This document shows, piece by piece, positions 13,691 through 15,892 of a stretch of DNA of 20,862 bases. The translations under genes and the position numbers were made by a program. This DNA comes from a virus, in IMG/VR virus record IMGVR_UViG_3300042402_000637, positions 1-20,862 of that record; one strand, 5' to 3'. Within the stretch, counting starts at the first letter, position 1. Each line of letters begins with the position of its first letter. The notes below the pieces were generated by a model, which saw only the letters and a list, made by a program, of their open reading frames with translations, made no database searches and was not told where the DNA came from.

Positions 13691-13962
13691 ATGTAACCAA
13701 AAAACTTGTGTTAAAATTGCTTGAGCAATATCCACAAACAAGAGACAATGACAACCTTTTGATGTCAATGATTTGGCGAAGCGAATCAAATCTGTTCAAC
13801 TTCTTCCATCGTTTAGAATCAGGCAAGTTAACACCAGCGGAAACCATCCGCAGATGCCGTCAACGGTTGCAGTTAGATGATCCAGAATTGCGAGGTGAGA
13901 CCTATGAGCTTCGACAAAAACACCAAGCAAAAGTGAAAAAAGAATTGGGATATGATGTGTGA
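13687..13962 (+). CDS. conserved phage protein, upstream of replication genes
   Basis: 91 aa from ATG 13687, coupled (ATGA) to the preceding stop; an earlier in-frame ATG at 13606 would overlap that gene heavily. Conserved-looking blocks are VLKLLEQYPQTRDNDNLLMS (about 9-28), LESGKLTPAETIRRCRQRLQ (about 44-63) and DDPELRGETYELRQ (65-78). This pattern (T.D.LL, then SI.R.RR.LQ, then P.LRG..Y..R) is widespread in phages of Gram-positive and Bacteroidota hosts just before replication genes; its role is not known. The promoter at 13945 lies inside its last codons. Confidence 0.65.
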   Translation: MNVTKKLVLKLLEQYPQTRDNDNLLMSMIWRSESNLFNFFHRLESGKLTPAETIRRCRQRLQLDDPELRGETYELRQKHQAKVKKELGYDV

Positions 13963-13975
13963 TTGATTATCTTTG
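13945..13975 (+). promoter_or_regulatory. consensus promoter for the structured RNA and replication genes
   Basis: TTG at 13945-13947, a 20-nt spacer, and TATCTTTG at 13968-13975, an exact TAnnTTTG match. It starts within the end of the preceding gene. A start of transcription about 4-5 nt after the -7 box falls at 13979-13980, which is the first base of hairpin 1 of the RNA described next. Confidence 0.75.
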
Positions 13976-13979
13976 TAGT

Positions 13980-14073
13980 GTTAACGAGAAGGTTGCAGTT
14001 TCTCAATGTTAAAAGATTTTTACCCTGTTGGAATAGTCGCACTGCAACTGCACTATTTCGATGGGGTTTTTTT
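13980..14073 (+). ncRNA. two-hairpin RNA with complementary apical loops (kissing-loop leader or small RNA)
   Basis: About 94 nt between a consensus promoter and the ATG at 14074. Hairpin 1: TTAAC (13981-13985) and GAGAA (13986-13990) pair with TTCTC (14000-14004) and GTTAA (14008-14012), with a 3-nt AAT bulge. A G-U pair (13991/13999) closes the 7-nt loop GTTGCAG (13992-13998). Hairpin 2: 14022-14041 pairs with 14049-14067 in 19 base pairs with one bulged C (14038), and its 7-nt loop is CTGCAAC (14042-14048). The two loops are exact reverse complements, so a 7-bp kissing helix is possible, within one molecule or between two. A 9-nt A/T-rich linker joins them. Several G-U pairs in hairpin 2 favour the + strand RNA over the antisense. 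I recognise no known RNA family. It may act as an attenuator or as a free small RNA. Confidence 0.6.
14022..14073 (+). terminator. intrinsic terminator abutting a start codon (attenuator candidate)
   Basis: Stem 14022-14041 / 14049-14067: ACCC with GGGT, then a mixed section with U-G pairs, then AATAGT with ACTATT, one bulged C, and GCA with TGC; 19 pairs in all, with loop CTGCAAC. T residues run from 14067 to 14073. The next base begins the ATG of the replication gene. A terminator here would stop transcription before the gene unless its loop is engaged or the structure is disrupted. Confidence 0.75.
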
Positions 14074-14670
14074 ATGTCAAAAAATAAGAAATCATTCCTA
14101 CTCTATTGTGATTTAATTCACACGGTAGACCAACTCACAAACGAACAGGCTGGTGATCTGTTCAAGCACATACTACGATATGTGAATGACCAAGAACCAC
14201 AGACGGACAATGTGATAACTCGCATTGCTTTTGAACCTATCAAGCAATCATTGATGAGAGATTTGGTAAAATACAAATCTATTTGTGAACGGAATTCGGA
14301 CAATGCAAAGAAGCGATGGGATGCGACCGCATCCGATGGCATACGACCGCTTACCAAAAATGCCGATAGTGATAGTGATAGTGATAGTGATAGTGATAAT
14401 GTAAAAGAAGAATACAAACTATCGTTTGATTTGTGGTTGAAGTATAAGAAAGAAAAAAAACAGAAATACACAACAACTGGCATTAAACAACTCATCAAAT
14501 CTTGTCAGTCAAAATACACACCAAAAGAATTCACGGAGGTCGTTGAACACTCCATCACTCAAAACTATTCAGGTTTATATGCACCAAAAGATTTTGAGAA
14601 AAACAAAACAATTGAAATCATTAACAACAAAAACAAATTTAATTTGAAAGATTATGACGAACGAGCTTGA
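14074..14670 (+). CDS. replication initiation-type protein (DUF6291-like N-terminus)
   Basis: 198 aa from ATG 14074. A longer frame from a TTG at 13963 would translate the structured RNA and is rejected. Residues 5-83 (KKSFLLYCDLIHTVDQLTNE, AGDLFKHILRYVND and onward to NSDNAKKRW) match the N-terminal domain found in phage replication-initiation or replisome-organiser proteins (DUF6291-like). A low-complexity linker follows (DS repeated five times, 98-107). The C-terminal domain (YTTTGIKQLIKSCQSKYTPK; NYSGLYAPKDF) is like the helicase-loader end of such proteins. The gene directly precedes the DnaB-type helicase (17-nt overlap), so it probably binds the origin and loads the helicase. The exact biochemical role is inferred. 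Confidence 0.7.
   Translation: MSKNKKSFLLYCDLIHTVDQLTNEQAGDLFKHILRYVNDQEPQTDNVITRIAFEPIKQSLMRDLVKYKSICERNSDNAKKRWDATASDGIRPLTKNADSDSDSDSDSDNVKEEYKLSFDLWLKYKKEKKQKYTTTGIKQLIKSCQSKYTPKEFTEVVEHSITQNYSGLYAPKDFEKNKTIEIINNKNKFNLKDYDERA
14365..14400 (+). repeat. hexanucleotide repeat (GATAGT)5 plus GATAAT
   Basis: Five perfect GATAGT units at 14365-14394 followed by GATAAT at 14395-14400, inside the replication protein gene. It encodes alternating Asp-Ser. Unit changes by slippage would keep the frame and only change linker length. Confidence 0.95.
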
Positions 14671-15892
14671 AGAATACATCATCGGTCAATTGCTTTACTA
14701 CGAACAGACCAGAGCATTATTACCAAGAATTAAACCAGTGTGGTTTGAAACAAAACTATATCAAAGAGTGATTGACTTTATGATGGACAGATATATACAA
14801 AACGAACCCATTGACTATGTGTGTTTGGTTGGGAAGTTTGAAAGAACTGAAGTACAACATCTTGTGACAATTGGTCAAGCCGTTTATTCTATGCCCAATT
14901 TAAGCCAATATCTTCCAAAATTGGAACATAGATACTTACAAAAGAATTTCGTTCAGCAAATCTCTTCTATTGATGTCACATTGGATTTGAAAGAGATGCT
15001 CACCTTTACACAAACTTTGATTGATAACACCAAGTTCACCACCATAAACGATCCTTTGTCTATTCACAAAGTTGTGGCATCGGCAGTTGATACAATAACC
15101 GAATCAATCAAAAGGGGTGACAAGATAACCGGGAAGCAAACTGGATGGCAATCACTTGACAGGGTATTGGGTGGATGGAATCACGGTGATTTGGTTGTGA
15201 TGGCTGCGAGACCGGGACAAGGAAAGACCGCACTTGCTTTGTCATTGATGTATGAGTTTGGGAAATTGGGTGGTAAGGGGTTATTCATTTCACTTGAAAT
15301 GTCATCCGAACAATTGGCGAAGAGATACTTGTCATTGATTTGTGATTTGCCAAACTGGAAAATTCGCAATGCGACATTGAGAGAAAATGAGGTGATTTAT
15401 ATGTGTGACAGTGTGAACAATTCGGTGGTTGAGTTCTTTGTTGATGACGATCCGAATTCATCCATCAATCAAATCAAATCAAAAGCAAAAATACACAAGG
15501 CAAAACACGGATTGGAATTGTTGATCATTGATTACATCCAGTTAATCAAAGGAACAAAGCAAAACAGAGAGCAAGAAATCGCAGAGATATCACGAAACCT
15601 TAAATTATTGGCAAAGGAATTGCAAATCACCGTTATTGTTTTGGCACAACTTTCAAGGAAGTGTGAGGAGAGAGCAGATAAAAGACCGATGCTATCCGAC
15701 ATTCGGGAAAGTGGAAGCATTGAACAAGATGCAGATGTTGTGATGTTCCCCTTTAGACCTGATTACTATTCAAAGGAACGCAATGAATCGGAGGATGCTG
15801 AACTCATCATCGCAAAGAACAGGCACGGAGAATGTTTCACAATTGAAACCACCTTCATTGGATCACGAACAATGTACAAGGAACGCATATGA
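14654..15892 (+). CDS. dnaB: DnaB-type replicative DNA helicase
   Basis: 412 aa, near the usual length of phage DnaB proteins. The N-terminal primase-interaction domain (about 1-125) starts MTNELEEYIIGQLLYYEQTR. After a linker comes the RecA-like core: TGWQSLDRVLGGWNHGDLVV (163-182), Walker A ARPGQGKT (185-192, Lys191/Thr192), FISLEMSSEQLAKRYLSL (211-228), Walker B LLIIDYIQLI (289-298, Asp293), and the H3/H4 region VLAQLSRKCEERADKRPMLS (329-348) followed by DIRESGSIEQDADVVMF. It unwinds DNA ahead of the phage replication fork as a hexamer. It overlaps the preceding initiator gene by 17 nt and the HNH gene by 4 nt. Confidence 0.92.
   Translation: MTNELEEYIIGQLLYYEQTRALLPRIKPVWFETKLYQRVIDFMMDRYIQNEPIDYVCLVGKFERTEVQHLVTIGQAVYSMPNLSQYLPKLEHRYLQKNFVQQISSIDVTLDLKEMLTFTQTLIDNTKFTTINDPLSIHKVVASAVDTITESIKRGDKITGKQTGWQSLDRVLGGWNHGDLVVMAARPGQGKTALALSLMYEFGKLGGKGLFISLEMSSEQLAKRYLSLICDLPNWKIRNATLRENEVIYMCDSVNNSVVEFFVDDDPNSSINQIKSKAKIHKAKHGLELLIIDYIQLIKGTKQNREQEIAEISRNLKLLAKELQITVIVLAQLSRKCEERADKRPMLSDIRESGSIEQDADVVMFPFRPDYYSKERNESEDAELIIAKNRHGECFTIETTFIGSRTMYKERI

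Follow-up and report, generated by a model that had tools for sequence, protein, structure and literature searches.

The window analysed here is a 20,862-base virus record (IMGVR_UViG_3300042402_000637), a phage. Its replication block encodes, in this order, ERF, YqaJ, small ORFs, a DUF6291 protein, DnaB, an HNH protein and a DnaA C-terminal protein. The DUF6291 protein displays weak matches to O-like replication initiation families (phrog_678 and phrog_4221). The interval between the end of the preceding ORF (13962) and the DUF6291 start codon contains a compact element composed of a promoter, two hairpins and a T tract (Table 1). As assessed by RNA folding, nucleotides 13980-14073 form just the two hairpins, with a minimum free energy (MFE) of -29.0 kcal/mol and a dinucleotide-shuffle z-score of -3.84 (1 of 200 shuffles was as stable). 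Transcription is likely to start at about 13979-13981, at the base of hairpin 1. An earlier note on this DNA, made from the sequence alone, had described a structured two-hairpin RNA with a promoter at its base, which agrees with the fold, the -7 box and the TTG spacing reported below. It had also described the two loops as perfect reverse complements, which they are, and the match can be extended to 8 nt (GTTGCAGT/ACTGCAAC).

Table 1. Features of the element and the genes that follow it (window coordinates)
Feature	Position	Strand	Basis and remarks
-33 TTG, Bacteroidota-type promoter	13945-13947	+	Sequence
-7 box TATCTTTG (TAnnTTTG)	13968-13975	+	Sequence; TTG 20 nt upstream (TTG-N20-TATCTTTG)
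Hairpin 1	13981-14012	+	RNA fold
Hairpin 1, lower stem	13981-13985/14008-14012	+	RNA fold; covaries in wider set
Hairpin 1, upper stem	13986-13991/13999-14004	+	Two-sided changes in 6/6 pairs
Hairpin 1, 3-nt bulge	14005-14007	+	RNA fold
Loop 1 (GTTGCAG), kissing partner 1	13992-13998	+	Covaries with loop 2 across 58 distinct relatives
A/T-rich linker	14013-14021	+	9 nt with lower stem formed; ~17 nt if opened
Hairpin 2, 19 bp, intrinsic-terminator-like	14022-14067 (arms 14022-14041/14049-14067)	+	RNA fold
Loop 2 (CTGCAAC), kissing partner 2	14042-14048	+	Sequence, fold and covariation
T7 tract	14067-14073	+	Sequence; zero bases before ATG at 14074
First operon gene, DUF6291 protein	14074-14670	+	Pfam PF19808, E 2e-24
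Second operon gene, DnaB-like replicative helicase	14654-15892	+	Pfam PF03796, E 4e-84; phrog_19

The presence of TAnnTTTG in the unique elements identified by the scan described below, most frequently as TATATTTG, was demanded by the scan itself. A TTG is found 19 or 20 nt upstream of this box in 43 of 95 unique elements, compared with 1-11 elements each at spacings of 17, 18, 21 and 22 nt, and this peak supports a real promoter. On the opposite strand, TAnnTTTG occurs between loop 2 and +120 in just 7 of the 95 elements, which represents no signal for an antisense promoter, and an antisense RNA partner was therefore dropped.

Relatives of the DUF6291 gene in viral contigs also bear the element upstream, with other loop pairs (GTAAGAG/CTCTTAC, GTAGAAG/CTTCTAC, GTCGCAT/ATGCGAC and GGTAGTAGC/GCTACTACC). 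In an alignment of 18 sequences, six of the seven pairs of the kissing helix show two-sided changes and 96% of cells are paired. When 58 distinct relatives were aligned to a model without any kissing pairs, 98.5% of the 399 cells of the kissing helix were paired; 97 changes were two-sided and 0 one-sided (G-U), and all seven pairs covaried. Sliding the partner by 1-3 columns as a control lowered pairing to 26-58%. The stems hold many G-U intermediates, whereas the kissing helix holds none. In hairpin 2, two-sided changes affect 13 of 19 pairs in one alignment (A3) and 18 of 19 in another (A5). Near relatives differ by single compensatory steps, for example L200 (GTCGCAT/ATGCGAC) and L207 (GTCGGAT/ATCCGAC). 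Paired changes preserving both stems and the complementarity of the loops, which the earlier note had named as support for its proposal, are thus strongly represented in the 18- and 58-sequence alignments. This covariation removes the reading of the loop match as chance. The element is real rather than a coincidence, considering that dozens of related phages keep the match with entirely different loops. In two distant relatives (L037:4890-4990 and L038:2470-2570), the loops match over 9 nt (GGTAGTAGC/GCTACTACC) and a small additional hairpin has been inserted next to loop 2.

To follow the element further, 4.2 Mb of phage loci were scanned on both strands using fold-based, sequence-independent criteria, i.e. 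promoter, loop complementarity, minimal stem 1, terminator hairpin and T tract. The scan identified 165 units, which reduce to 96 unique elements and carry 44 different loop strings, in loci gathered around DUF6291, DnaB, winged-helix initiator and ParB-like protein genes, and these counts are not a phage-wide frequency. The relatives are mostly metagenomic contigs. Control scans for loops that were complementary without reversal, identical or reversed returned 8, 0 and 5 units, respectively. An earlier independent scan gave 148 units versus 10, 36 and 10 in its controls, or 138 versus 8, 4 and 1 with a strict promoter. The odds of 1 in 16,384 originally attached to the loop match ignored the freedom of the search, but both the comparison of relatives and the scan place the match far above chance. 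It is true that two-copy 7-mers arise randomly, and a few matches were seen in the controls. Nevertheless, the idea of an ordinary terminator bearing a complementarity without function is hardly credible in view of the scan counts (165 versus 8, 0 and 5) and the 97 to 0 balance of changes in the kissing helix, and we count it as refuted by covariation.

With strict criteria, the element was found in 40 of 78 DUF6291 loci with sufficient upstream sequence, and about 14 more were recognized by eye. Among named phages, the element occurs in Cellulophaga phi19:3 and phi13:2, in Flavobacterium tooticki6-1 with its relatives, in Flavobacterium elemoA and in Olleya Harreka_1. In 397 Flavobacteriaceae genomes, a covariance model of the window type gave 0 matches at E <= 1e-5, which shows little, as the search had no positive control and absence from chromosomes thus refers to one model and one bacterial family. 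As a working definition, the class comprises a TAnnTTTG promoter, hairpin 1, complementary loops of 6-10 nt that are ~50 nt apart, a terminator hairpin, and an ORF within ~28 nt. This definition fits positions 13968-14074 of the window as well as the remaining unique elements from the scan. Among the elements listed from a scan that did not demand a T tract, the tract was still present, with one visible exception. This element-like unit (L105:249-345, loops GTACAAG/CTTGTAC), in which the T tract is apparently missing, is possibly a variant without terminator.

An ORF starts no more than 28 nt after the end of the unit in 164 of 165 cases, with a median distance of 6 nt, which indicates that the element is a 5' leader and not merely a free small RNA. 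The 94-nt unit of promoter, RNA and terminator proposed earlier therefore stands as an architecture, but not as a free RNA only. Because the unit lies just before an ORF, a transcript starting there can include the gene only by reading through the terminator. Judged by sequence comparison, the promoter, both stems, the loop-loop pairing, the T tract and the position at ORF starts are established. DUF6291 is led by 99 units; the other genes encode HNH/NUMOD4 endonucleases, ParB-like methyltransferases, several winged-helix replication initiators and GIY-YIG-like proteins. Although most of the genes led are replication initiators of unrelated families, the element also precedes HNH, ParB-like, GIY-YIG-like and YopX genes and is thus not confined to replication genes; a site just before the replication genes, as first described, is correct for DUF6291/DnaB in the window but does not hold for every element. 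The YopX gene (gp058) is led by a second element in phi19:3 (L377:3710-3860, record 23510-23660) with loops CCTTCAC/GTGAAGG. In some loci (L028, L029, L059, L069, L150, L154, L168, L191, L193 and L040), HNH/NUMOD4 genes are inserted between the element and DUF6291 and come immediately after the leader. Neither the endonuclease nor its leader is present in lillamy9-1 and filifjonk9-1, suggesting that the two may travel together.

The earlier note knew of no described family with this form. Consistent with this, the window and 20 loci with other elements gave zero matches at gathering score in Rfam 15, and a permissive Rfam search of 13900-14150 returned sub-threshold matches only. No tRNA was found in the window. 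A literature search, leaving aside a 2017 survey of 224 structured RNAs, yielded no relevant description of such an element. The element is thus apparently an undescribed RNA, with features shared among several known systems. In ColE1 RNA I/RNA II, short kissing loops vary among types while the structure is kept. The same is true of the element, but no overlapping antisense transcript is predicted and the loops are complementary within one RNA, so the ColE1-type control invoked earlier serves as an analogy only. ColE1 control also involves a primer RNA that is processed at an origin and regulated by the antisense RNA. Antisense RNAs of the FinP/CopA class are ~80-90 nt long and have two hairpins, the last of which is a terminator, with specificity residing in the loops. 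The element shares the two hairpins, the terminator-like last one and the loop specificity, whereas its partner is the same RNA rather than a target from the other strand. The pRNA of phi29, which is part of the DNA packaging motor, forms oligomers through kissing loops. Intermolecular kissing loops are also used by the phage RNAs GOLLD and ROOL (PMC12286853). These RNAs are far larger or linked to packaging and are not 5' leaders with a terminator, unlike the element, which is found at replication and early operons and not at packaging genes.

In phage HK022, put RNA folds into two hairpins at the 5' end of early transcripts and modifies RNA polymerase in cis, suppressing downstream terminators. 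It has a conserved sequence, lacks a terminator of its own and is not known to have complementary loops. The element likewise opens the transcript with two hairpins, with one element per operon head, and could in principle be a processive antiterminator of this kind, loading onto RNA polymerase so that it passes its own and later terminators of the early operon. We consider this decidedly improbable, since the element has a terminal T tract of its own and since, outside the promoter and terminator base, no nucleotides appear universally conserved, unlike what an RNA that binds polymerase would need.

By analogy, the nearest precedent is the attenuator of repC in pT181-type plasmids. In pT181, a 5' leader with an intrinsic terminator precedes the replication initiator gene, a loop-loop contact decides termination, and a separate antisense RNA is required (PMC4878617). 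Similarly, the predicted terminator of the element, hairpin 2 with its T tract, is immediately followed by DUF6291/O-like genes or by genes for other initiators. The element differs in that both complementary loops are found in one transcript, an opposite-strand promoter for a countertranscript being seen in just 7 of 95 elements.

We propose, with a probability of roughly 0.45, that the leader of the phage replication operon is a transcription attenuator built on self-complementary loops. In brief, (i) transcription would begin at the base of hairpin 1, (ii) with polymerase at the T tract and loop 2 freshly out, loop 1 would catch it ahead of the release of the 3' arm of hairpin 2, (iii) the loop1-loop2 helix would strain or delay the terminator and polymerase would enter the DUF6291 and DnaB genes, or (iv) the kiss would come too late, hairpin 2 would close and transcription would end after ~94 nt. 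Finished 94-nt RNAs, which have both loops, might then bind in trans to loop 1 of newly made transcripts, so that termination returns. Template copy number would thereby limit expression of the replication gene, as with the countertranscript RNAs of pT181-type plasmids, and a single RNA would be sensor and antisense at once. Termination, read-through, the direction in which the kiss acts and any action in trans are what we infer from the architecture of the leader.

If the transcript is cut right after loop 2, the MFE structure contains the loop1-loop2 helix for 36 of 44 loop types, compared with 2 of 44 for the full unit. Although the fold of the cut transcripts is partly a consequence of complementarity itself, this difference suggests an attenuator logic in which the kiss is an early competing contact. 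Loop 2 itself lies outside the terminator stem, which is relevant to an antiterminator fold that would exclude the terminator. The distance between the loops is conserved at ~50 nt (42-57 in nearly all elements) and, modelling helices as rigid rods with 2.8 Å per bp and 6 Å per nt, the linker is, once the lower stem is open, long enough to bridge the stacked helices in 72 of 82 elements. This spacing and the barely sufficient linker favour pairing in cis. With hairpin 1 fully formed, however, the 9-nt linker (~60 Å) of the window family is too short for both the kiss and the full terminator in cis, and for 30 of 64 structures the distance with all helices formed is too long. Considering that the lower stem of hairpin 1 covaries, the kiss may therefore be intermolecular, and the RNA may form a dimer or alternate between states. 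The element probably works as a switch.

The chief rival to the attenuator is that the terminated 94-nt RNA is the main product, with read-through secondary. It would form an antiparallel homodimer, in which loop 1 of one molecule pairs with loop 2 of the other and reverse, or would act in trans, e.g. in superinfection exclusion. We regard this as unlikely, although a closed dimer fits all covarying helices together, whereas the cis arrangement fails to do so in 30 of 64 structures. Both the position of the unit next to an ORF start and the strong conservation of loop spacing, which is needless for a dimer, speak against it, and the loop 1 sequence is found at other gene starts no more than by chance. 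Indeed, loop 1 copies that had been considered as trans targets are confined to the element's own downstream gene, in a few types.

These copies bear on another alternative, namely that control is translational, with hairpin 2 against the start codon, loop 2 pairing with the initiation region and loop 1 acting as a decoy. Four types have a third loop-1 copy between the T tract and the ATG (TCGCAGC, GTGCAG, GTCGCAG of L079, and GAGCAG), which could give loop 2 an additional partner in the initiation region. Most elements, including that of the window, are without a third copy, which makes this mechanism improbable for the class. The copies were seen in L028 (4474-4486), L069, L150, L154, L191, L193, L075 (3990), L079 (before 4001) and L093 (1359).

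Phages that are 95-100% identical around the element have different loop alleles, which would be expected of a specificity determinant and counts in favour of the attenuator. Compared with L006, the window is 95% identical in the upstream 390 nt and 98% at the gene start, but just 76% in the element; compared with L007, the first 282 nt of the gene are 100% identical and the element 77%. The differences among the three lie in stems and loops and are compensated. Moreover, alleles GTTGCAG and GTAAGAG are found with two types of DUF6291 C terminus in all four combinations (window, L006, L007, L018 and L019). This pattern fits an exchange of specificity alleles, although part of it could stem from the mosaicism that is ordinary in phages at module boundaries. 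Upstream of the promoter, the sequence is often wholly different, suggesting that the element marks a mosaic junction. A sequence identical to the loop-1 region, GGTTGCAGTT, is found in the preceding ORF of the window (13865-13874); as L006 keeps it despite its own loops GTAAGAG/CTCTTAC, it was rejected as a third partner and is probably a coincidence.

Differing loops in 95-100% identical flanks, and in all four combinations, would suit a dimer or trans-acting RNA, as would the unlike loops of genomes with two elements, i.e. the tooticki type (GTCGTCG and GTGAGACG), phi19:3 (CTCTCACA and CCTTCAC), L128 and L286, which are too few for this difference to be a test of avoidance. In a tentative and rather doubtful extension of the attenuator, a single RNA would provide both copy-number and self/non-self control, the leader of each phage being its own antisense RNA. 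Terminated copies would kiss new leaders and throttle the initiator according to genome number, and the loop would define an incompatibility type, driving loop diversification among phages that are otherwise identical. Against attenuation, the HNH, ParB-like and YopX genes with such leaders do not obviously need copy-number feedback.

Dose sensing by kissing loops in plasmid RNAs needs two transcripts. In the Bacteroidota, a large bacterial phylum, numerous phages seem to have both partners within a single leader of 90-130 nt, with ~44 loop strings kept complementary. If the element controls replication, it would be a compact regulator of phage genome copy number, and possibly of superinfection, and its naturally different loops would be a set of ready parts for RNA circuits.

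Within the DUF6291 gene of the window, a GATAGT-type tandem repeat (14365-14399) encodes SDSDSD, and relatives have other short repeats at the same place (TDTV, DNDN). They may represent iterons of an origin located within the gene for an O-like initiator.
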